DNA from: Arthrobacter roseus
Lineage (GTDB): Bacteria; Actinomycetota; Actinomycetes; Actinomycetales; Micrococcaceae
Assembly (NCBI RefSeq): GCF_016907875.1
Contig: NZ_JAFBCU010000001.1
Span: forward strand, 2,542,001-2,606,000
DNA length: 64,000 nucleotides
Direction: 5' to 3'
The position numbers and the translations under genes are program-made. The notes beneath the pieces were generated by a model, which was given only the letters and a program-made list of their open reading frames with translations, searched no databases and was not told the DNA's origin. Positions 16,525-55,350 of the stretch are shown here, piece by piece (position 1 is the stretch's first letter; the number at the start of each line of letters is the position of its first letter).

Positions 16525-16579
16525 CTACGTGCTTCACCGCACCGGAGTCTCGGCCACGCTCGGCAGTAGGGTTGCAGCT

Positions 16580-17933
16580 ATGGGACTCCGGCGTGTGAGT
16601 TTGATACAACGCTTTCGAACTGAGATGAGGTCAGTACGAACGCGGGTGCTTGCCACCATGCTGGCTTTCATGGCATCGGGCCTGATTGCAGCAGGCACAG
16701 TCACGGACTCTGGCGGCGGCGGGGCCTGACAAGGGGAACAGCACCTTCACGTCCGTCAATGAGCTCTTTCCCGCGTTGATCCGCAGCCGGGTCTCCAGTG
16801 CACATGAATCACTGGTCATGATCATCAACCGTCAGGCCGCCTATGTCCCTAAAGCCCAGCGCACTTCCAACGCGCAGATACAGCAGATCGAGAACGCCGC
16901 GAGAAGATACTCTGTCCCCGGGGAAACTGTGCTGCGTGATATTGAACTCAACGGACTAACCCACCGTCTGGCCATTGTTGACGTGCGTGTTGAGGGAGAT
17001 CAAGCCGACGGGGTCATGGTGGTCGCCAGCGATATTACTACTCAACGCGCAGATATTTTTGATTCGCTGAGAACTTTCAGCCTGGTCTCTCTGGGGACAA
17101 TTCTACTGGCTGGCATCGTGGGTTTTGTGGTGACCGGCCGCCTACTGACACCCGTCAAACGCCTGCGGGAAGCGACGGCCGCTGTTACCTCGGATGAGTT
17201 GACTCAACGGGTTCCTGTGCCAGACAGTGACGACGACATCAGCCAATTGGCAGCGAACTTCAACCATATGTTGGATCGGCTCGAAGAAGGATTCTCAGAT
17301 CAGCGTCGTTTCCTGGACGTCACCCAGACACGCGCACTGGGCCTGGATGAGCTGGACCGGATGTAGCGTCTGGTTGACGATCTGCTGGTGCTCGCCAAAG
17401 CACAGCGTCCTGACTTTCTTCGCCTCGATTGGATGGAGCTAGAACATTTTGTGATTGACGTACTGGATCGGGTCTCCCTCCTCGGTGAGCGCAACTGGAT
17501 TATCGATCATCCGGGTTCGGGGCGAGTCTGGGCGGACCGGCAGCGCATCACCCAGGCTCTCGTGCAACTGGCCGCCAACGCCCTTAAGTTCACGGCCGAC
17601 GGCGACACGATTGCTATCGGAGCGAATTGGTCCGACCCACCGCCATCGATGATTCAAGACCCAGAAGTGCACCATGCGGCTGCCCTGGAGTTGTGGGTGA
17701 GGGATACCGGCGCTGGCATTGCAGCCGCGGATCAGGAACGGATTTTCGACCGATTCGGACGCGGTGCCACCGGACGGACAGTCGAAGGCTCCGGACTGGG
17801 CCTTTCGATCGTCACAGCCATCATGGACGCTCACGGTGGCGCCGTGACGCTATCTTCGCAGCAGGGGCGCGGCTCCACGTTCACGCTGTGGGTCCCGGGT
17901 GGGAATCGGAACGAAAGTAGAGAGGAACGCTAA
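16580..17933 (+). pseudogene. Sensor histidine kinase pseudogene
   Basis: Remnant of a two-component sensor kinase. The N-terminus (ATG 16580) has the usual membrane helix ('VLATMLAFMASGLIAAG') but runs into a stop soon after about 16715. The rest of the extracellular sensor continues in another frame from 'GPDKGNSTFTSV', so a deletion with frame change has occurred. A second helix ('LVSLGTILLAGIVGFVVTG') and a HAMP domain ('PVKRLREATAAV') follow. After 'DQRRFLDV' the protein jumps to 'TQTRALGLDELDRM', so the H-box with the phosphorylated His is gone. A TAG at 17364-17366 sits where a CAG would restore the frame into 'RLVDDLLVLAKAQ'. The ATPase half (17388-17933, 'DTGAGI', 'GSGLGLSIV') is still open. 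Three independent lesions argue for a true pseudogene. Confidence 0.9.
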
Positions 17934-17935
17934 GC

Positions 17936-18503
17936 GTGTCCAGCATATTAATCGCAGAAGATGAAGTCCGCATCTCCATGTTCCTTCAGAAAGGTCTGAA
18001 GGCTGCCGGGTTCACGACCACTGTGGTGGAGGATGGCATGAGCGCACTCGACTACGCCACCACAGGAGAGTTCGATCTCCTGATCCTCGACGTGGGCCTG
18101 CCGCGCATGGACGGTTTCACCGTCCTGCCCACGCTGAGATCGATGAATGTCACGCTGCCGGTCATCATGGTGACAGCCCGGGATTCGGTGCAAGACACGG
18201 TGGCGGGGCAGGAGGGCGGCGCCGATGACTACCTGGCCAAGCCCTTTCGCTTCGAGGAACTTCTGGCGCGCGTGCGCAAACGTCTCCGTGAACCGCCGGC
18301 GACGGCTGGAGCGCCGAATGTTCCTGGAAAATCCGGGACATGTCCTGACCCGCGACCAACTCCTCAGCCGAGTATGGGGCTACGACTATGAGGGTGCCTC
18401 AAACGTCGTCGACGTCTACCTGCGGTACCTGCGGAACAAGCTCGGTGCGGAGAGGTTCCTGACGGTCCGCGGCGTTGGCTACCGTTTGGATGAGAAGACC
18501 TAG
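17936..18503 (+). pseudogene. OmpR/PhoB-type response regulator pseudogene
   Basis: Cognate regulator of the preceding kinase remnant. The receiver is intact from the GTG at 17936: acidic pocket 'IAEDE', phospho-acceptor Asp in 'LLILDVGLP', the 'MVTA' Thr and the 'LAKPF' Lys. After 'RVRKRLRE' (near 18291) the frame is lost: the receiver frame ends at 18391 with an unrelated tail. The winged-helix half resumes in another frame as '[19 protein letters not shown]' and ends '[12 protein letters not shown]'. The start of the DNA-binding domain (about 40 residues) is missing between them, so this is a deletion plus frameshift, not only a base miscall. A receiver-only protein could still be made. 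Confidence 0.9.
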
Positions 18504-18648: not shown

Positions 18649-19871
18649 ATGGATTACATCCCAGAACGCGCAGACTCCGGGGAGCTGCGCGTCATCCTTT
18701 ATTCGCACGATTCTCAGGGTCTGGGACATACCCGCCGTAATCTGGCCATTGCCGATGCTCTGGCGACCCGGCTCCCGGCACTCCTTAACCGCAAGGTCAC
18801 AGGGCTGCTGCTCAGCGGAGTGGGAACCCTCGGGTTTCCAGTGTCCTGCAACCTGGGATTGGGTGGCGTTGCCGGGAGTGGACAAACATGAAGGCAGTTA
18901 CGTCCCTCGCCATCTCGACGTCCGCATGCCACAATTGACGACCCTTCGTGCGGGCATCGCGGAGGCCGCTATGGTGTCTTTTGAACCACACCTGATCATC
19001 GTGGACCGCCACCCATACGGCGTCAACGGAGAACTGGGCAAGGCACTGAGCCAGGTCCGCCGAACCAATCCCGGTTGCAAGGTTGTGTTCGGATTACGCG
19101 ATGTGCTGGATTCCCCCGAGGCCGCTGCACGCGAATGGCAAGCCCTGGGAAGTCTCGGTCATCTGCGCGAGGATTTCGACGAAATCTGGATTTATGGAGA
19201 TCCGAACATTCACGATCCGCTGGCCACCGGCGAAATTCCGCTAGCGCTGGCAGATCGTGTCCGCTACACCGGGTACCTTTCCGCGGGCCGGCCCTACGCT
19301 GCCAACTCCAGCACCATGGAGCCGTCTTTTCTGCTCACCATGGCAGGGGCGGATCGGACGGTCTGGCGGTGACCATGGCGGCGGCGCGCGCCGGCGTTCC
19401 CCATGGTTACAGCCATCTGATCATTACCGGACCGCAGATGCCTGCAGCGCACCGCAGAGATGTGGAACGGGCAACAGGTCCACGCACACGCGTTGTTTCC
19501 TTCGTCCCCAAGCACTGACCGAAATCAAAGCTGCCAGCGCGATTGTCTCCATGGGCGGGTACAACTCTATCTGCGAGATCCTCAGCACCTCAGTGCCTGC
19601 ACTGGTTATCCCGCGTGTGCATCCCCGCCAGGAACAACTGATACGAGCCAGTGCGATGCAACGTCACGACCTCGTGGCTCTCTGTCCACCGGAACAGCTA
19701 TCCAGTGAAGCGGTGAGTCAGTGGTTCACCGAGGCTACCGAGAAAGAACAGAACCGGAGCAACGTGAACCTCGCTGGACTGGCGGCAGTACCGCGTATGG
19801 CCGCGGAACTGCTGTCCGGCGGAGTGAAGACCATCACGCCCGAAAGGGAGTACACCCATGCCGTCATCTGA
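18649..19871 (+). pseudogene. Glycosyltransferase (COG4671-like) pseudogene, three frameshifts
   Basis: The remnant of a GT28/GTB-fold glycosyltransferase starts at ATG 18649 behind AGGAAGG. The opening 'VILYSHDSQGLGHTRRNLAIA' is typical of predicted glycosyltransferases of the COG4671 group. The coding frame changes near 18836 (continues 'ATWDWVALPGV'), again near 19350 at a run of G's (continues 'GGSDGLAVTMAAARAGVP'), and again near 19512 (continues 'LTEIKAASAIVSMGGYNS'). It ends 'REYTHAVI' with a stop overlapping the next start by 14 bases. All conserved blocks are still present, so the decay is recent, or some shifts could be sequence errors. It would have added a sugar in the same polysaccharide pathway as the next two genes. 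Confidence 0.85.
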
Positions 19872-21444
19872 GCGGAGCAACCGCCCCCGTGTGGGCTACG
19901 TGCTGAAGGTCTACCCGCGCTTTTCAGAGACCTTCATCGTCACCGAAATCTTGGCCCGGGAAGCGGCCGGAGAAAACCTGACCATCTTCTCCCTGAGGCC
20001 GCCCTCGGGTCCTCGCTTTCACCCGGAACTGGCGCGGGTGAAAGCGCCGGTCCATTACGTGGAACGGTCATTCAAGCTCAGTGAAGGCTGGGAGATCATC
20101 AACCGTGCGCAGGAGGTGATCGAAGACTTCGCCCAGCGGTTCGGTCTGGTACTGCCCCAACTCGCGGGGCAGGACCCCCACGAGGTCTATCAGGGCATCC
20201 AGCTGGCCACGATGGCTACCCTGAACAACATCGACCATCTGCATGCGCATTTTGGTTCCGTGTCAGCGCGGACCGCGCGTATAGCCTCACTGCTGACGGG
20301 GATCCCCTATTCGTTCACATCTCATGCCAAGGACATCTTTCACGAGTCAGTGGACTATCACCAGCTCCGGGCTGTCCTGCGGGATGCTGATCATGCCATC
20401 ACCATCAGCGCCTACAACCACCGTTTCCTCTCGTCACTGTTTCCAGCCGAGACTGCTCGCCTACACCTGATCTACAACGGGCTGGAACTCGACCGCTTCA
20501 CCTTCAGGCCGCCGTCGCCCCTGGGATCGACACTGAAGTTAGCCGCCGTGGGACGGCTCGTGGAAAAAAAGGGCTTCGCGCTGCTGATTGCCGCCGCCCA
20601 GCAACTGGTGCACGAGGGAGTGCACCTTGACCTCCGGATAGCCGGTGGCGGGGAACTGGAGGAAGAACTGAAGACCCAGGTCCGCCAGGCAGGGCTGGAA
20701 GACGCCGTCACCCTCCTGGGACCACAAAATCAGTCAGAGGTCGCAGCGCTCCTGGGCTGGGCGGACGTTTTTGCGGCGCCCTGCGTTGTAGGAACGGACG
20801 GCAACACCGATGGGCTGCCCACCGTACTTCTGGAAGCGATGGCCATGGGAGTGCCCGTCGTCGCCAGCGATGTCACCGGCATACCCGAAGTCATCACCTC
20901 TCATCCAGATGGAACGCCGAAAACGGGAGTGCTGGTATGTGCTGGCTCTCTGGAGGATCTCATCCACGCACTGAAGTGCACGGCATCGCCAGACTTTGAG
21001 CGGCAAGAGATTTCCCGTAACGCCCGCCGTCTCATCGAATCGGCCTTCAACGCGCGTATCCAAGCACGGCTGCTGGCTGGACTGCTCGCTGGCAAGGACC
21101 ATGACCAGTCCACGGACGAGGTGGCCCGATGCGCGTCGCCTACATCTGCGCCGACCCCGGAATCCCAGTCTTCGGAACCAAAGGGGCCTCAGTTCACATT
21201 CAGGAGATCGTGCGCGCCTGGCGCGCCCACGGAGACGATCTACGCCTGTACTGCACCCGACGGGGCGAGGACGTTCCCGCCGATCTCGCTGACGTTCCCC
21301 TCACCGAACACCAGGTGCCGATTGTCAGGGCCGAAGAACGCGAGCAAGCTCAGTACGAGGCCGCAGAATATCTGGCCGCGGCAGCCCTCGCCGACGGCAT
21401 CGATCTCGTGTACGAACGTTACTCACTCTTCAGCACGGCGCTGA
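19858..21444 (+). CDS. GT4 glycosyltransferase with aberrant C-terminal read-through
   Basis: A cytosolic GT4-like glycosyltransferase. The N-terminal domain has 'VGYVLKVYPRFSETFIVTEI' and 'HLHAHFGSVSAR'; the C-terminal nucleotide-sugar domain has 'VGRLVEKKGF', 'LRIAGGGELE' and the acceptor motif 'EAMAMGVPVVASDVTGIPE'. The recognisable protein is about 424 residues, ending near 21129 where the next gene starts. There is no stop at this point, so the frame continues 104 residues through the following gene in another frame, giving a Ser/Pro/Arg-rich tail with no family likeness. A change in codon 2 of the next gene may have removed an ATGA-type stop. The core is probably active; the fate of the tail is unknown. 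Confidence 0.85.
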   Translation: MPSSERSNRPRVGYVLKVYPRFSETFIVTEILAREAAGENLTIFSLRPPSGPRFHPELARVKAPVHYVERSFKLSEGWEIINRAQEVIEDFAQRFGLVLPQLAGQDPHEVYQGIQLATMATLNNIDHLHAHFGSVSARTARIASLLTGIPYSFTSHAKDIFHESVDYHQLRAVLRDADHAITISAYNHRFLSSLFPAETARLHLIYNGLELDRFTFRPPSPLGSTLKLAAVGRLVEKKGFALLIAAAQQLVHEGVHLDLRIAGGGELEEELKTQVRQAGLEDAVTLLGPQNQSEVAALLGWADVFAAPCVVGTDGNTDGLPTVLLEAMAMGVPVVASDVTGIPEVITSHPDGTPKTGVLVCAGSLEDLIHALKCTASPDFERQEISRNARRLIESAFNARIQARLLAGLLAGKDHDQSTDEVARCASPTSAPTPESQSSEPKGPQFTFRRSCAPGAPTETIYACTAPDGARTFPPISLTFPSPNTRCRLSGPKNASKLSTRPQNIWPRQPSPTASISCTNVTHSSARR

Positions 21445-22256
21445 GCATCATCGTCTCGGAGGCGGGCGTTCCCGGCATCCTGGAAGTCAACGCTCCACTG
21501 ATCGCTGAACAACGGCTCTACCACAGCCTGCACGATGAAGACCGCGCCGTGGACATCCTCCGGCAGCAGGCGGCCGCCGCCTCCCGCATCGCTTGTGTAT
21601 CGGAACCCGTCGCCCAATGGGCACAAGAACTGGCCCCACTAGCCGAAGACCGTACTCTGGTGGCGCCCAACGGGGTGAACGTCTCACGGATCCGGTCCGC
21701 GGCAGAACGCGGCGAGCGCCCCGTCGTCGTCTTTGTCGGCACGTTGAAACCGTGGCACGGAGTAGACGTGCTCATCGAAGCGGCGGCGCAGGCGCGGCAA
21801 GACTGGCAGCTCCGAATCATCGGTGACGGCCCTGAAGCTGAGCCGCTACGCACGCTTGCCCGGGAGCTGGCTGTTGACGTCGAATTCACCGGCGCGCTCG
21901 CTCCAGAACGCATCCCCGCGGCGCTGGCCGAATGCTCCATCGCAGTGGCCCCTTATCCAGCAACGGACCGCGAGGAACAGCAATACTTCTCACCCTTTAA
22001 AATCTTTGAATACTGCGCCGCCGGTTTGGCCGTCGTCTCCTCCCGGGTGGGACAGATTCCCCACATCCTCAAGGACCAGAGCACAGGAATTCTGGTTGAG
22101 CCCTCAAATCCAACGGCGCTCCGAGATGCCGTTGACACCCTGGCCGCAGACCCGGACCTTCGGCACACTCTGGCCGCGGCAGCACGGCAGGACGCCGTCG
22201 ACAGCCACAGTTGGGATTCAGTACTGACGAAAATACTGCAGGGAGTGCAGCTATGA
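21129..22256 (+). CDS. GT4 glycosyltransferase
   Basis: A 375-residue GT4 (GT-B fold) glycosyltransferase. It opens 'MRVAYICADPGIPVFGTKGASVHIQE', and the donor domain shows 'VVFVGTLKPWHGVDVLIEAA', 'IIGDGPEAEPLRTLA' and 'FKIFEYCAAGLAVVSSRVGQIP', with the Glu expected near the sugar nucleotide. The length is normal and the frame intact. Its first 316 bases overlap the read-through of the preceding gene, and its stop overlaps a new ATG (ATGA at 22253). The role is probably addition of a sugar to an envelope or exported polysaccharide; donor and acceptor cannot be told. Confidence 0.9.
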   Translation: MRVAYICADPGIPVFGTKGASVHIQEIVRAWRAHGDDLRLYCTRRGEDVPADLADVPLTEHQVPIVRAEEREQAQYEAAEYLAAAALADGIDLVYERYSLFSTALSIIVSEAGVPGILEVNAPLIAEQRLYHSLHDEDRAVDILRQQAAAASRIACVSEPVAQWAQELAPLAEDRTLVAPNGVNVSRIRSAAERGERPVVVFVGTLKPWHGVDVLIEAAAQARQDWQLRIIGDGPEAEPLRTLARELAVDVEFTGALAPERIPAALAECSIAVAPYPATDREEQQYFSPFKIFEYCAAGLAVVSSRVGQIPHILKDQSTGILVEPSNPTALRDAVDTLAADPDLRHTLAAAARQDAVDSHSWDSVLTKILQGVQL

Positions 22257-22312
22257 AAAAACGGCAACGCGGCTTGGTGTCAAGCGGTGGTAGCAACATC
22301 GTCGTTGAGTAG
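22253..22312 (+). pseudogene. Truncated 5' end of a lost gene
   Basis: ATG at 22253 overlaps the stop of the preceding glycosyltransferase as ATGA, the pattern used by coupled genes in this operon. The frame encodes only 19 residues (MKKRQRGLVSSGGSNIVVE) and then stops. It looks like the beginning of a further operon gene removed by a deletion whose other edge is the UDP-glucose dehydrogenase remnant. The family is not recognisable from so short a piece. It could also be a chance ORF. Confidence 0.4.
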
Positions 22313-22329: not shown

Positions 22330-22488
22330 GTGGTGTTGCTGACCCAATGGGAGCACTACACCCAGCTGGACCCGTGGGCAGCCGGCCAGCTGGTCGACGG
22401 AAAGTATGTTCTTGATGGTCGCAATGCTTTGGACCTCGACACCTGGCGAGGTGCTGGCTGGAACATTAAAGCAATGGGGCGGCCCTGA
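22330..22488 (+). pseudogene. C-terminal remnant of UDP-glucose/GDP-mannose dehydrogenase
   Basis: A 53-codon stretch ending in TGA reads 'VVLLTQWEHYTQLDP' and 'VLDGRNALDLDTWRGAGW' and finishes 'KAMGRP'. This is the C-terminal substrate-binding end of UDP-glucose 6-dehydrogenases, which normally closes with 'DGRN.LD...WR.AGW.Y..MGRP'. An in-frame TGA at 22318 blocks the frame upstream, and none of the NAD-binding domain is present within the window. It is on the same strand as the glycosyltransferases, so a dehydrogenase supplying UDP-glucuronate probably once belonged to this cluster. Confidence 0.85.
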
Positions 22489-22507
22489 TAACTGCGGTTC
22501 CGGTGCT

Positions 22508-24577
22508 TCAGGGCACCGGGATCTTGGCCACGCTCGCCCAACCTGTTGCCTGGCCGAAACGGGCACCGAAGTCATCCAACATGGTTTCCAGATACGACTG
22601 GGTCAAGTGATCGAGATCCATATAGACGTACACGTTGCCAATAGCACCCGGGCAGATATCGTCAATGCAGAACTTGTCCGACATATCCATGGTTCCAACC
22701 TTGGGCATGGAAGCACCCAGGGCGACAAGCGGGGATTCCTCGGCTAGAACCTGCGAACGTGGGAGGTTGCATTCCGGTGAATCGACTCCGTTGGTCTCCA
22801 GGCATTCGGGCATCGGGAACTCGAACCGAGGGTTGTCTCGGATACCGACAACGCTGATCCCGGCGTCCAGGAAACCCTGAACGCCCTCCTCATAGCCCTC
22901 AACGAGTGTTTCCTCCGGTGAGCTGTGTTCGGTTCGGGTAGCGACGGTGAAGACGGCGTCCGGCGTGCGCTCCATGACATAGGCCTTGCTGGCTTCGTTG
23001 AACTCGTTGCACTCCGGTGTGCTCTCGGGAGTTGGCGCGGCATAGCGGCAGCCCGGCTTGTGGATGAGGATGACGAGCCAGTTGTTGGCACGGGCAACCG
23101 GTCCCATCGCCGACATCCATTGCTGCGTGTGGGAGTCTCCCAGCGCAACGATGGTGCGGGTGGCTGTATCTGGGTTCCCCATATAGTCGCAGGACTCAAG
23201 GACCGGGTTGGTGGGCTCCCAGATACCTTTGCACTCGCCGTCGTAGTCGGCCCACTCTCCGCCCATGTTGCTGATCAACGGCTTGAGCGCAGCATCCGGA
23301 GTTCCCAGGTATTCAAAGCCCGGTTCCAGCGCCGCCGCTCCCGGGTTGTCCTCGGAAGACTGTGACGCAACGGCCTGCTCCTCGGCGTTGACCTGATACT
23401 GCCAACCCGACAGGGGTGCGGCAACCAGGGCCACACTGACTGCCACGACGATGCCCATCCGGTGACGGCGGGTTGATGCCCATGTCCAGCTGCGCACAGG
23501 AGTTTCGACCAGGCGTGTGGTGAGGATGGCCAGAAGTATGGACACGCCAATGAGGACGGCGCCGTCCATGAACCCGGCCGCGCTCTGCTCGGAGTACACG
23601 AGCCAGAACACAAGCAAGGGCCAGTGCCACAGATACAGAGCGTAAGAGTTATCGCCCATCCGCACCAGAGGTTTGAAGGTGAGGACGCGATCCACGCCGA
23701 AGCGGCTTCCAGATTGGCCCGCTACCATGATGCAGGCGGCGGAGAGAAGCGGCCACAGCGCGATGTAACCAGGGAACTCCGCCTCCACCTGAAGGACAAT
23801 CCCACAGCTGAGCATCCCTACAAAGCCCACCCAACCCAGGATCACCCTGAGCACCCTGTTGAAATTCAGGTATGGCAGTGTCAGCGCCAATAGCGAGCCG
23901 AGGGCAAATTCCCACAGGCGAGTGCGCGTGTCGAAGTAGGCGAAGGTCTGATTAGTTGCCGTCTCCCAGGCCGAGAACGCCAGCGACGCGGCGAAGAGAG
24001 TTGAGAACACGACGGTGAGCACGGTGCGGAAGCGGGTTTTCAGGAACCGCGACACCACAGCCGAACCAGCAAACAGCAACGGCCACAGAATGAACACCTG
24101 GCCCTGGATAGACAGCGACCAGAAGTGTTGTAGTGGGCTGGCGGCACTGTGATCTGTGGCGTAGTAATCCACCGAGCTGGCAGCGAGTTCCCAGTTCTGG
24201 AAGTAGAAAAGAGACGCCCATGTCTGGCTGAAAACCTCTTCCCACTGCGTCCGCGGCAGCAACAGCGCAGTGGCTACGAGGATGGCCAGCAGTACGACGA
24301 CGACGCCCGGCAGGAGCCGCTTGAACAGGTGAAGCCAGTACTTCACGAGGTGCAGCGGCTTACCGCCCTCAACTTTGCGGACGAATGAGCCGGTCAACAG
24401 GAACGCCGACACCAGAAGGAAGATGTCCACTCCCCCGGAAACCCGGCCAAGCCATACGTGATAGACCACCACCATGAGGACGGCGAGCGCCCGGAGACCC
24501 TGGAGTTCTGGGCGGTAAGTTTTGACCGGTTGGCGTGATGGCGTACCCGTGGTGGGCTCTCTGACCGTGACGGACAC
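22508..24577 (-). CDS. Membrane acyltransferase with SGNH domain (copy 2 of tandem pair)
   Basis: A 689-residue OafA/YrhL-type protein. The N-terminal acyltransferase-3 domain has about ten membrane helices and the expected His in 'VVYHVWLGRVSGGVDIF', plus 'SPLQHFWSLSIQGQVFILWP'. After the last helix ('MGIVVAVSVALVAAPLSGW') comes an extracytoplasmic SGNH hydrolase-like domain with the nucleophile motif 'VALGDSHTQQW' and a late 'DLDHL' carrying the catalytic Asp/His. Such proteins transfer acetyl or other acyl groups to sugars of envelope polysaccharides. It begins with GTG, sharing one base with the stop of the upstream copy (TAGTG), so the pair is coupled. It ends 19 bases from the dehydrogenase remnant, convergent with it. 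Confidence 0.9.
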   Translation of the reverse strand: MSVTVREPTTGTPSRQPVKTYRPELQGLRALAVLMVVVYHVWLGRVSGGVDIFLLVSAFLLTGSFVRKVEGGKPLHLVKYWLHLFKRLLPGVVVVLLAILVATALLLPRTQWEEVFSQTWASLFYFQNWELAASSVDYYATDHSAASPLQHFWSLSIQGQVFILWPLLFAGSAVVSRFLKTRFRTVLTVVFSTLFAASLAFSAWETATNQTFAYFDTRTRLWEFALGSLLALTLPYLNFNRVLRVILGWVGFVGMLSCGIVLQVEAEFPGYIALWPLLSAACIMVAGQSGSRFGVDRVLTFKPLVRMGDNSYALYLWHWPLLVFWLVYSEQSAAGFMDGAVLIGVSILLAILTTRLVETPVRSWTWASTRRHRMGIVVAVSVALVAAPLSGWQYQVNAEEQAVASQSSEDNPGAAALEPGFEYLGTPDAALKPLISNMGGEWADYDGECKGIWEPTNPVLESCDYMGNPDTATRTIVALGDSHTQQWMSAMGPVARANNWLVILIHKPGCRYAAPTPESTPECNEFNEASKAYVMERTPDAVFTVATRTEHSSPEETLVEGYEEGVQGFLDAGISVVGIRDNPRFEFPMPECLETNGVDSPECNLPRSQVLAEESPLVALGASMPKVGTMDMSDKFCIDDICPGAIGNVYVYMDLDHLTQSYLETMLDDFGARFGQATGWASVAKIPVP
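24441..24496. repeat. 56-bp direct repeat, copy A (tandem acyltransferase genes)
   Basis: These 56 bases are identical to 26495-26550. Both encode the first membrane helix and following loop of the acyltransferase domain (the block around 'VLMVVVYHVW'). The genes differ clearly on both sides, so this is more than protein conservation would need and suggests recent gene conversion or strong local constraint. Confidence 0.85.
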
Positions 24578-26649
24578 TAACGCTTCCAGCCCGTGGAATC
24601 GAATAGGCGATCGGAGAATTCCTCCGTCATGCTGCGGATATATGTGGCTCCGAGGTGATTATCATCCATGTAAACCATCACGTTTCCGATCACCGGCGGG
24701 CAGAGCCCGTCAACACAAATGCGGTCTGTCATATCGATGACGTGCAGTTTTTCGTACCGCTCGCCCAGTGAAGCTGCAGGGTTGACGTCCGCGAGCTTGT
24801 CCTCGAGCCGGAAGGTGCACGCCGGATCCTCAACACCGTTGGTTTCAACACATTCGGGGATGTTGACCCCGAAACGGGGATTGTCCCTGATGGCGATAAC
24901 GTCTGCTCCGTCATCCATGATCTGCACTGCGGCTTTCTCATATCCGGGTACCAGCAAATCCTCTGTCCGGGTGTGATGCGAGGACGACGACACCGTGAAA
25001 ACCATGTCCGGGTTTATAACGTCCAGGTAGCGCAGGGCATCGCCATTCCAATCCTCGCAACCCTCAAACTGTTCGCCGATCGGGGCTCCAAACGGGCACT
25101 GGCCCTTCCGGAGGACCACCAGCTGCCAGTTTTGCTCAGCGGCAAGCACTTCGATAGCTGCGACCCACTGCTGAGGGTGCGATGCGCCGACGACCACGGC
25201 AAGCTTGTCGGGATTCTCCGCCAGAGGAGTCTGGGTGCACCCGTCCTGAAGCAGCCCATACTCGGAGGCGTCAAAAATTCCAGCGCATTTCTGGTCTAGC
25301 CAAACCCATTCCGCGTCGATGGCTGTGGGCAAAGGAAGCACCGGGGCCTCGGGATTGCCTTTAAATTCAAACCCCTTGCCCAAGACAGTTGCACCCGGGT
25401 TATCGATGTCGACGCGGGTGGCTGCTTCTGCGGCGGCCGCGCGCAGCTGGCTTTGCCAGGTTGCGACGGGCACTGCCACCAAGAGAACGCTCAACGCTAT
25501 GACGATGCCGGCGCGGAGTCGCTTCTCCTCCGCCCACTTCAGATTCCGGATAGGGGTGTCGATCCATTTGGTGACGAGAACTGCCCAGATCACTGAGAAG
25601 ACAATGATGAAAGCTCCCGAGATGGGACCGGCCATTTCGCGGTCCCTGAAGATAAGGTAAATCACCAGAATGGGCCAATGAATGAGATACAAGGCGTAGG
25701 AAGAATCACCGAGTTTCACTAGTGGCTTCCACGACAGTAGCCGGTCCGCTCCCCAGCGGCTATCCGTTTGACCAGCCACGATGATCGCTGCTGCTGCCAG
25801 CGTGGGCCAGAGCGCGATGTAGCCGGGGAACTGCTGTTCCACCTGCAGCACGATACCCACGCTGAGCATCGCCGCGATGCCGATCCAACCGAGAAATACG
25901 CGCGCGCTGCGCCCTGGCTTGAGGTACGGGAGAAACAATGCGATCAGAGATCCAAGAGCGAATTCCCATAGCCTCGTGCGGGTATCGAAGTAGGCAAAGC
26001 CCTGATTTGTATACGTTTGCACAACGGAGAAGGCCAGCGACACCGCGAACACGGATCCAAAAAGCACGATCAACGTAGGGCGGACCCTCAACAGCGTTCG
26101 GCTGCAGAGCAATCCAGCCAGGGCGAACAACAGCGGCCAGAGAATGAATACCTGCCCCTGGATGGACAGTGACCAAAAGTGTTGCAAGGGGCTGGCTCCA
26201 CTGTGGTCCGTTGCGTAATAATCCACAGAACCAAACGCCAGGACCCAGTTCTGGAAGTAGAACAGAGACGCCCATGCTTGATCGAGAATTGTTGACCACC
26301 GGGTTGCGGGCACGAAAGTGAACACTGCCGCCAGAGTAACGAGGATGGTTAGCGCCGCCATGGGCAGCAGTCGTTTGAATACATGAACCCAATAGCCAGG
26401 GAGGTCCAGAGCCTTCCCGGTTTCGAGTTTTCGTGTGAAGGAAAGCGTCAACAGAAACGAGGAGATGAGGAGGAAAATGTCCACACCCCCGGACACCCGG
26501 CCAAGCCATACGTGATAGACCACCACCATGAGGACGGCGAGCGCCCGGAGGCCCTGAACTTCCGGCCGGTACACCTTCGGGTCTTGACGTCTGGGCACAG
26601 TTGGCGAGGAACTGTCCCTGCTTATAGCAGCAATCTGGGCGCTCGGCAC
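24577..26649 (-). CDS. Membrane acyltransferase with SGNH domain (copy 1 of tandem pair)
   Basis: A 690-residue paralogue of the next gene, with the same acyltransferase-3 membrane domain ('YRPEVQGLRALAVLMVVVYH', 'SPLQHFWSLSIQGQVF') and SGNH-like extracytoplasmic domain. Here the first SGNH block reads 'VVVGASHPQQW', so the Asp of GDS is Ala while the Ser is kept; the late block is 'MDDNHLG'. The altered block may change or weaken the activity of this domain. The GTG start is preceded by GGAAGG. It is the first gene of the pair and faces groEL across a strong inverted repeat. A role in O-acylation of the neighbouring polysaccharide is inference from position. Confidence 0.9.
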   Translation of the reverse strand: MPSAQIAAISRDSSSPTVPRRQDPKVYRPEVQGLRALAVLMVVVYHVWLGRVSGGVDIFLLISSFLLTLSFTRKLETGKALDLPGYWVHVFKRLLPMAALTILVTLAAVFTFVPATRWSTILDQAWASLFYFQNWVLAFGSVDYYATDHSGASPLQHFWSLSIQGQVFILWPLLFALAGLLCSRTLLRVRPTLIVLFGSVFAVSLAFSVVQTYTNQGFAYFDTRTRLWEFALGSLIALFLPYLKPGRSARVFLGWIGIAAMLSVGIVLQVEQQFPGYIALWPTLAAAAIIVAGQTDSRWGADRLLSWKPLVKLGDSSYALYLIHWPILVIYLIFRDREMAGPISGAFIIVFSVIWAVLVTKWIDTPIRNLKWAEEKRLRAGIVIALSVLLVAVPVATWQSQLRAAAAEAATRVDIDNPGATVLGKGFEFKGNPEAPVLPLPTAIDAEWVWLDQKCAGIFDASEYGLLQDGCTQTPLAENPDKLAVVVGASHPQQWVAAIEVLAAEQNWQLVVLRKGQCPFGAPIGEQFEGCEDWNGDALRYLDVINPDMVFTVSSSSHHTRTEDLLVPGYEKAAVQIMDDGADVIAIRDNPRFGVNIPECVETNGVEDPACTFRLEDKLADVNPAASLGERYEKLHVIDMTDRICVDGLCPPVIGNVMVYMDDNHLGATYIRSMTEEFSDRLFDSTGWKR
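26495..26550. repeat. 56-bp direct repeat, copy B (tandem acyltransferase genes)
   Basis: Identical to 24441-24496 and in the same place in the paralogous gene. Distance between copies is about 2 kb, so recombination could delete one gene and leave a chimera. Confidence 0.85.
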
Positions 26650-52903: not shown

Positions 52904-53284
52904 ATGTTAAAGGGATTCAAAGAATTCATGATGAAGGGCAACGTCGTAGACCTTGCCGTCGCGGTGGTTATTGGTACGGCGTTCGCAGCGGTCGTCAAGG
53001 CGCTCGTAGACAGTGTGCTGATGCCCCTGATTTCCATGTTGTTCGGAACACCGAATTTCGATGACTTTCTGGTCTTCGGCCAGGTCAAGTTCGGAGTCTT
53101 TCTGACCGCGGTTGTCACTTTCGTGCTCGTCGCCGCCGCCGTGTACTTCGTCGTGGTTCTACCGATGAATAAGATGATCGAACGCCGCAACCGTCGTCTG
53201 GGAATTGTCGAGGAGGAAGAGGCAATCGATCCGCAGATCCTGCTGCTCACTGAAATACGCGACAGCCTGCAGACCCGCCTGTAA
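52904..53284 (+). CDS. mscL: Large-conductance mechanosensitive channel
   Basis: A 126-residue membrane protein with two transmembrane helices. It opens 'LKGFKEFMMKGNVVDLAVAVVIGTAF', with the pore helix 'LAVAVVIGTAFAAVVKALV', a loop and the second helix 'FLTAVVTFVLVAAAVYFVVV', then a charged C-terminal bundle. It opens under osmotic downshock. Length and layout are canonical. Confidence 0.96.
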   Translation: MLKGFKEFMMKGNVVDLAVAVVIGTAFAAVVKALVDSVLMPLISMLFGTPNFDDFLVFGQVKFGVFLTAVVTFVLVAAAVYFVVVLPMNKMIERRNRRLGIVEEEEAIDPQILLLTEIRDSLQTRL

Positions 53285-53301
53285 TTCGCCGTTCCCAAAG
53301 A

Positions 53302-53326
53302 CCCGTCCCCCGATCATAGGGGCGGG
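53302..53326. terminator. Terminator-like GC hairpin after mscL
   Basis: CCCGTCCCC at 53302-53310 pairs with GGGGCGGG at 53319-53326 (one bulged T, eight-base loop), 18 bases after the mscL stop. There is no U tract, which is common among actinobacterial terminators. Confidence 0.55.
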
Positions 53327-53390
53327 CCTGCCAATCGCAACCCCTGTCCTAGGGCTTCACGCGACTCGACCATAAGGAAGGAACACGACA

Positions 53391-53864
53391 TTGAGCAGTA
53401 GAGCTGCATGGAGAACGCTGTTTTTGACTTCACTAGTCGTTCTTGCCGTTGCAGGCTGTACAGGGATGGACACTCCTTCTATGGAAAGTGACAGAGCGAC
53501 GGCGCCTATGGTCACGGCCAGCCCTGATTCGCTCACTCCGGTGGCTGATGTGAAGATCCAGGTGCCCGAAGATGAAGACGTGCTCGGATCCCTTGAGAAC
53601 CAGAAGGGCATCGGCAGTATCGGACCATTGGAGGTCACAAAGCCGTCGCTGGTTATATTTGCCGCCTGTGCAGGACAAGGCCACGTCTCCGTGGGCATTC
53701 CGGGCGTAGGATCATTTCCGCTGAAGTGCGATTCCAACGCCAGTGGGGTGCGCAATGAGTTTGACGTTGGCCATGTAAGTGGTCCGATCACCGTGAAAAT
53801 CGCGGGGATGGGCGAACAACGATGGGCAGTGACGGTAGCCCAGGCGGAACCAACCGGATACTAA
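53391..53864 (+). CDS. Small secreted lipoprotein, unknown function
   Basis: A 157-residue protein. TTG at 53391 follows AAGGAAGG with good spacing. A lipoprotein signal is clear: 'RAAWRTLFLTSLVVLAVAGC' with the lipobox ending 'AVAGC'. The mature part has no recognised domain; it includes two further Cys ('FAACAGQGHVSVG', 'PLKCDSNASG') that could form a disulfide and ends 'RWAVTVAQAEPTGY'. It is convergent with glmM. I know of no assigned role. Confidence 0.75.
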   Translation: MSSRAAWRTLFLTSLVVLAVAGCTGMDTPSMESDRATAPMVTASPDSLTPVADVKIQVPEDEDVLGSLENQKGIGSIGPLEVTKPSLVIFAACAGQGHVSVGIPGVGSFPLKCDSNASGVRNEFDVGHVSGPITVKIAGMGEQRWAVTVAQAEPTGY

Positions 53865-53932
53865 CTATTCCGGCGCTCGAATGGGCAAAGAGGCTGATCT
53901 TTCGCCGCGTCCGTCGTTCCGGCGCACCGAAA

Positions 53933-53979
53933 GTGCAGGTCAGGGGCCCCGCGCTGAGATAGGAGCCCTTTACCTGCAC
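53933..53979. terminator. Possible bidirectional terminator between lipoprotein gene and glmM
   Basis: GTGCAGGT (53933-53940) and ACCTGCAC (53972-53979) form an eight-base stem, with further GC-rich partial pairing inside the 31-base interval. It lies between two convergent stops, where a terminator would be useful. The long loop lowers confidence. Confidence 0.4.
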
Positions 53980-53991
53980 GAAAGGCGACGC

Positions 53992-55350
53992 TTAGGCGGT
54001 GCTCGCTAGGGTCAGATGCGAGCGAACGGCGCCAGCCAACTGATCGGCGAGCCGCTCAGCGGTCACCATGTCCTCAGCCTCAACCATGACGCGTACAACA
54101 GCTTCCGTACCCGACGGGCGCAACAAAACGCGCCCGGTTTCTCCAAGTTCACCCTGAGCAGCCATGACGGCATTCTTTACGCCCTCATGGGTGCTCACTG
54201 CTGTCTTGTCCACGTCCTTGACGTTGATGAGTACCTGGGGCAGTCGGGTCATGATGCTCGCGAGCTGCTTGAGCGACCGCCCGGTCTTGGCTACCTGGGC
54301 GGCGAGCTGAAGTCCCGTAAGGACGCCGTCGCCCGTAGTGGCATGATCGGCAATGATGACGTGGCCCGATTGCTCACCGCCGAGGCTGTAGCTGCCCTTG
54401 CGCATGGCCTCGAGAACGTAGCGATCCCCCACCCCGGTTTCCCGGACGCTAATGCCGGCCTCACGGAGAGCAAGTTTGAGTCCCAGATTGCTCATGACAG
54501 TGGCGACGAGGGTGTTGTCCTTCAACCGGTCCGCCGCGTTCATGGCGACCGCGAGGATCGCCATGATCTCGTCGCCATCGACAACGGTGCCCTCATGGTC
54601 AACGGCGAGGCAGCGGTCGGCGTCGCCGTCGTGGGCGATGCCGAGATCCGCGTTGTTCGCCAAGACAGTCTCCTGGAGTTTTTCCAGGTAGGTGGATCCG
54701 CAGCCATCGTTGATGTTGAGGCCGTCCGGGTCCGCGCCGATGACTATGATGTCCGCGCCAGCAGCGGCGAATACTTCCGGGGAACAGCCGCTCGCGGCAC
54801 CGTTAGCGCAGTCGAGGACAATTTTCAGGCCATCAAGGCGGTGCGGGAGAGTCTGCAACAGGTGAAGCACGTAGCGGTCTTCGGCGTCTGCGAACCGCTG
54901 GATACGCCCGACATCGGCCCCCGTGGGCATGTGGGCGGGGTTCTTCAGCTGCATCTCGATAGCGTCTTCTACGGTGTCGTCGAGTTTCTGTCCACCACGG
55001 GCGAGGAACTTGATGCCGTTGTCCGGCGCCGCATTGTGGGAGGCCGAGATCATGACGCCGAAGTCGGCTTTGAGGTCCGCTACCAGGAAAGCCGCCGCGG
55101 GGGTGGGGAGGACACCGGCGTCGTAAACGTCAATACCAGAACTGGCAAGTCCAGCTTCGACCGCAGCGCCTATGAATCCGCCGCTGATACGGGGGTCGCG
55201 TGCAATGACGGCGGTGGGGCGCTTACCGTCTTCCACAGTGTTGTGTCCAAGGACGACGGCAGCAGCTTGTGCGAGCTGTAGTGACAGCTCGGCCGTGATC
55301 AATCCGTTTGCCAATCCTCGGACCCCATCGGTCCCAAACAATCTACTCAT
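53992..55350 (-). CDS. glmM: Phosphoglucosamine mutase
   Basis: A 452-residue enzyme converting glucosamine-6-phosphate to the 1-phosphate for UDP-GlcNAc. It opens '[14 protein letters not shown]', the active phosphoserine is in '[16 protein letters not shown]', the metal loop is '[11 protein letters not shown]' and the substrate loop 'GGEQSGHVI'. The C-terminal '[19 protein letters not shown]' binds phosphate. It is 136 bases downstream of rpsI, beyond a strong hairpin, as in many actinobacteria. Confidence 0.96.

Follow-up and report, generated by a model that had tools for sequence, protein, structure and literature searches.

A 64,000-nucleotide stretch of the Arthrobacter roseus genome (contig NZ_JAFBCU010000001.1, positions 2,542,001 to 2,606,000; hereafter the window) carries two adjacent GT4 glycosyltransferase genes, GT-A and GT-B. 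The first of these has very probably lost its natural stop codon through a single T-to-C transition at position 21127 of the window, by which TGA became CGA, and this loss appears to be one lesion among many in a dispensable, decaying gene cluster. Ordinary gene decay, rather than the emergence of a new part of a protein, is the most likely interpretation.

A probable stop-codon loss between two glycosyltransferase genes

The open reading frame (ORF) of GT-A (19858-21444, plus strand) comprises 528 codons and terminates with a TGA at 21442-21444. Its conserved core of 423 codons (19858-21126) is delineated by the Pfam family Glycos_transf_1 (1.6e-30), orthologs, near-invariant alignment columns and the predicted local distance difference test (pLDDT) values of an AlphaFold2 model. 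Codon 424 is the CGA at 21127-21129 (plus strand), and the remaining residues, 425-528 (21130-21444, plus strand, with the final TGA), are read from the second frame of GT-B, the start codon of which is the ATG at 21129. GT-B itself is an intact ORF of 375 amino acids (21129-22256, plus strand) with Pfam and near-invariant-column support, and the two ORFs overlap by 316 nucleotides. These observations confirm the description given by the first-pass annotation, made from the letters of the window alone, of a 104-residue out-of-frame tail taken from the next gene. The tail was also expected to be rich in serine, proline and arginine, and its composition (17 Pro, 16 Ser, 13 Thr, 10 Ala and 9 Arg among 104 residues) agrees.

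Relatives of GT-A came from two sources: a search of 148 genomes gave 30 loci (one being the window), and a collection of genome contigs gave 434 confirmed candidates, of which the best 80 were kept; loci are labelled L and genomes G. A downstream GT-B is present at 100 of these 110 loci, the window again included, and we set aside nine loci at which none was found and one running off the end. GT-B starts in the 99 relatives were extrapolated from alignments; L003, L032, L034 and L035 likely start one codon before the aligned position, and their 'codon 2' is given in alignment register. Some sequences are duplicated between the two collections (L010/L068, L011/L052 and L013/L059), so that the 99 relatives do not represent 99 independent cases.

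In 33 of the 99 relatives, GT-A stops in the codon homologous to the CGA of the window (26 TGA and 7 TAA), which supports the earlier proposal that a natural stop has been lost. A further 33 relatives have an ATGA overlap, 26 have other spacing and 7 are in-frame fusions. GT-A ends no more than four bases beyond the aligned GT-B start in 92 relatives, the remaining seven being fused. Among the 12 relatives closest by GT-A, ten stop at the position of the CGA, one (L004) has ATGA with AAG as codon 2 of GT-B and one (L036) has other spacing. The alignment across the junction is gapless, with GAG GTG GCC CGA TGCGC in the window opposite GAG GTG GCG TGA TGCGA in Arthrobacter VKM Ac-2550 (L031). 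GT-A matches its orthologs in a single frame to about residue 413, and the stop was therefore probably lost by substitution. An upstream frameshift, which the first-pass annotation had named as a possible refutation, does not apply to GT-A; it is the preceding GT28-like gene that has three frame changes. GT-B is of normal length, with 375 amino acids against 376 in L033, and aligns from residue 1. The direction of the stop-codon change is inferred, all the relatives compared being of other species.

Two further observations concern the junction in relatives. The seven fused loci (L006, L007, L009, L040, L041, L043 and L044, Kocuria among them) encode GT-A and GT-B as one long, naturally fused ORF. 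Separately, the 24 bases around the junction are the same in L002 and L031, the proteins of which are 92-96% identical, except that one has TAA where the other has TGA; there the stop codon itself changes and termination is kept.

Decay of the surrounding cluster

Apart from GT-B, the genes of the cluster around GT-A are damaged or missing. The order histidine kinase, response regulator, GT28-like glycosyltransferase, GT4-A, GT4-B recurs in four of four loci examined, in Kocuria (L037 and L038), Sediminivirga (L051) and Brevibacterium (L083). In the window, the histidine kinase persists as a remnant (16686-17933, plus strand) that, aligned to L038 and L083, shows a 27-residue gap removing the H-box (HELRTPL) part of HisKA and an in-frame TAG at 17364-17366. 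Pfam detects only HAMP and HATPase_c in it, on separate ORFs, and HisKA in the L038 ortholog. The response regulator remnant (17936-18503, plus strand) has its receiver and DNA-binding parts in different frames with a poorly matched linker, as compared with an intact L038 ortholog containing Response_reg and Trans_reg_C. The GT28-like glycosyltransferase (18664-19841, plus strand) is broken into four pieces in three frames, with breaks near 18820, 19348 and 19510 relative to L111, L112, L113, L114, L031, L033, L037, L038, L051 and L083.

The downstream side is similarly reduced. In Arthrobacter H5 (L033), the gene after GT-B encodes an ABC transporter; at the position where this gene begins, the window has a 19-codon ORF (22253-22312, plus strand, placed by eye), and tblastn searches with the downstream ORFs of L033, L037, L038, L051 and L083 returned no transporter match after GT-B in the window. 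Next lies a C-terminal scrap of a UDP-sugar dehydrogenase (22330-22485, plus strand), 46-52% identical over 52-53 residues to ORF ends in L112, L113 and L114. The matching ORF of L112 is a UDP-glucose/GDP-mannose dehydrogenase by Pfam; the scrap itself matches UDPG_MGDP_dh_C with an E value of 0.0004 and 21.2 bits, under the 30-bit cut-off. Several adjacent genes thus carry disabling lesions relative to intact orthologs in the same order, and, as far as sequence can tell, this is a pseudogene cluster, the decayed form of a polysaccharide-type cluster.

The only congener compared, G001, lacks the whole region. Its IMP dehydrogenase gene (96% identical) and AT3-SGNH acyltransferase gene (86% identical) are separated by 64 bases between the matched ends, the 6-kb segment between those two genes is wholly absent, and the best matches of GT-A and GT-B in this genome are weak (4.8e-11 and 7.4e-16). 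In the window, a 34-base direct repeat (16529-16562 and 22503-22536, 29 of 34 positions identical) flanks the segment without counterpart in G001, one copy lying at the 3' end of the acyltransferase gene. The repeat scores 24, against a maximum of 16 in 491 random stretch pairs, a rough control since the repeat was sought after both ends had matched one G001 site. Either G001 has lost the segment, perhaps between repeats of this kind, or the lineage of the window has gained it. The minus strand of the window carries two tandem AT3-SGNH acyltransferase genes (22508-24577 and 24577-26649) that share one base and are about 52% identical to each other.

Lesions of this kind could also be artefacts. 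Under a sequencing or assembly error, the true base at 21127 would be T, GT-A would end normally and some of the neighbouring frame changes might be errors too. Two of the three frame changes in the GT28-like gene, placed by eye, do fall at short runs (GGGG at 19346-19349 and CCCC at 19506-19509), and a lone substitution can be checked only with reads. However, read errors do not typically produce what is also seen nearby, namely an in-frame gap of 27 residues, a nonsense codon and absent genes. The genome, a single contig, has a completeness rating of 99.99%, and the rest of the 64 kb consists mostly of open genes by a crude ORF scan made without ortholog checks (no clear gene was seen in 53284-53992). 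We therefore consider an error improbable.

Route of the stop loss

The first-pass annotation had proposed a particular route, in which GT-A formerly ended in an ATGA overlap, taken to be the norm for this operon, and a silent change of codon 2 of GT-B from AGA or AGG to CGC destroyed the stop. ATGA is indeed found at the next junction of the window (22253-22256) but does not appear to be the norm between GT-A and GT-B, where ten of the 12 closest relatives stop one codon earlier. The two junction types also differ in codon 2: it is CGN in 31 of the 33 relatives with the homologous stop, and AGA or AGG in 28 of the 33 with ATGA (28 of all 99). The configuration required by the silent route thus exists in the wider family, and L004, in the window's part of the tree, has ATGAAG. 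Conversely, ATGCGC directly preceded by an in-frame stop (TGA or TAA, the last base of which is also the A of ATG) occurs in ten of the 99 relatives, including Arthrobacter sp. H5 (L033) and Kocuria dechangensis (L037); a shared CGC with a different natural stop was what the first-pass annotation had itself named as refuting its proposal.

Phylogeny separates the two junction types further. A quick tree of GT-A and GT-B had 57 rows, namely the window and those 56 of the 99 relatives whose GT-A scored at least 330 bits. In this tree L004, the L002/L031 pair, six Arthrobacter-like rows and a branch holding 26 more emerge from the same unresolved fork as the window. Measured by path, the five closest rows stop without exception at the CGA position, and two of these, L002 and L031, are near relatives of each other. 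By contrast, 15 of the 17 rows with AGA or AGG form one separate group composed mainly of Nesterenkonia and Brevibacterium, with Micrococcus terreus and a few others. Moreover, AGA or AGG becomes CGC only by two substitutions and TGA becomes CGA by one, and the stop-codon transition is therefore the simplest history. The relatives compared already speak against the silent route. We rejected it on the junctions of the 99 relatives and regard it as very unlikely.

Nature of the tail

The tail shows no sign of being a coding region in its own right. In a codon model, its frame scores -0.30 bits per codon (105 codons from 21127), as against +0.28 for nearly the same bases read in the frame of GT-B and +0.26 for the core of GT-A; the training set consisted of long ORFs of the window, among them perhaps the entire 528-codon ORF, tail included. 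AlphaFold2 predicts most of the GT-A core with pLDDT above 90 and everything from residue 416 onward with pLDDT below 50, which is weak evidence of disorder, given that the tail had no aligned homologs in the run. Hence the codon model gave no coding signal, and AlphaFold2 no confident fold, for the tail frame. With relatives stopping before the tail as well, neither coding signal nor conservation points to a functional overlapping coding region. Genome-search matches that extend into the tail (for example G061, query 9-526) are best explained by the search tool reading through stops, the conserved GT-B making the shifted frame look alike. On the coding score and the junctions of the relatives, we rejected the tail as a conserved element. 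It is of low complexity and probably disordered.

Nor does the length of the tail point to selection. When 34 genes of the window, GT-B included, are read from base 2 of their start codons, none stays open for longer than GT-B, and the median run is 5.5 codons. This control set was picked by hand from 44 ORFs of the window, with starts taken as the most upstream ATG, GTG or TTG, and its zero-length runs are start codons followed by A. In the gene family itself, however, nine of the 33 relatives with a stop in the homologous codon would also run on for at least 104 codons beyond it (the list of read-through lengths includes one odd value, 542 codons for L074). A tail of this size is therefore long for the window and ordinary for the family, and its length alone is no sign of selection.

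Discussion

The history that we propose starts from an ancestral cluster in the order histidine kinase, response regulator, GT28-like gene, GT4-A, GT4-B and ABC transporter and, probably close by, a UDP-sugar dehydrogenase. A single transition from TGA to CGA at 21127-21129 would have abolished the natural stop of GT-A, and ribosomes translating it would then continue in the second frame of GT-B until they meet the first chance stop, at 21442; the protein would gain a tail of low complexity that is probably disordered. The same substitution would have removed a one-base stop/start overlap that may have coupled the translation of GT-B to that of GT-A. Where this event falls in the order of the lesions may only be surmised, and the tail presumably has no function.

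Several observations weigh against decay as the full account. The cores of GT-A and GT-B are nearly intact: only one of 90 near-invariant columns is changed in GT-A and three of 83 in GT-B, and 15 and two of the 57 rows, respectively, deviate more. Either both enzymes still work, then, or the decay is young. Relaxed evolution of GT-A, looked for by identities and near-invariant columns, left little or no excess divergence. Specifically, GT-A of the window is 65.7% identical to L111, much like the intact pair L111-L033 (66.2%), with corresponding values of 58.7% and 62.2% for the GT28-like gene and 59.7% and 65.3% for GT-B; across the orthologs in L111, L031, L033, L112, L113 and L114, GT-A identities are 53-66% (58.4% with L033). 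The ATGA junction of L004, within the window's own fork, makes the proposed ancestral junction likely rather than certain, and the improbable base-calling error at 21127 must be counted here as well. Finally, the genome has an intact-looking UDP-sugar dehydrogenase gene at another place, with an open frame of 435 codons, so that this activity need not be lost.

It is conceivable, if very improbable, that GT-A and GT-B still work in an otherwise dead cluster and that the 104-residue tail, an accident in origin, is translated and either tolerated or even of use. If so, this would be a C-terminal extension caught at birth, built from the second frame of the neighbouring gene. Least probable of all is a retained extension, compatible with an origin by point mutation, in which a 528-residue protein is made and its tail acts on stability, in membrane or partner binding, or by lowering GT-B translation: the nearly unblemished GT-A core and the Shine-Dalgarno-like GAGGTGG still present before GT-B (21118-21124, plus strand, placed by eye) speak for it, but the negative coding score, the lack of a confident fold (a weak argument without aligned homologs), the frequency of chance read-through of such length in the family and the broken or missing partners of the cluster all argue against it.

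Loss of the GT-A stop in a decaying cluster is a further case of an already described class of overlap. Point mutation of a stop codon that extends the 3' end is a recognized origin of long overlaps (PMC2478687, category iii), and frameshift and stop mutations together account for 68 of 715 co-directional long overlaps. The 316-nucleotide overlap of the window exceeds the mean of 121 bp given for the class, and its lesion can be assigned to one base within a decayed cluster. In the model of Fonseca, Harris and Posada (2013; PMC3887535), overlaps arise mainly when the upstream gene loses its stop and is read on to a later one, and selection is not needed; the simulated neighbours are initially non-overlapping, whereas the genes of the window likely began with a one-nucleotide overlap. 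Huber et al. (2019; PMC6728339) report strict coupling in 13 of 14 tested cases of overlapping ATGA or TGATG pairs. The GT-A/GT-B junctions of many relatives (TGATG, TAATG or ATGA) resemble these termination-reinitiation pairs, but at that of the window the stop half of the signal is gone. Andreatta et al. (2015; PMC4494051) describe C-terminal extensions in yeast and Drosophila in which a lost stop codon likewise gave a new C-terminus; these are built from former non-coding DNA in eukaryotes, and the tail of GT-A from the shifted frame of a neighbouring gene. Open-licence literature on overlaps and pseudogenes yielded general work, with no title on this cluster among the matches listed.

The case also illustrates that a mutational story told from a single sequence needs relatives, the silent-codon route having fitted the genetic code and not the junctions of the closest relatives. 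On its own the loss of the GT-A stop matters little. It offers a clean case of a long same-strand overlap that would have arisen from a stop/start overlap via one substitution and with no selection, and it warns against taking such tails for new domains.
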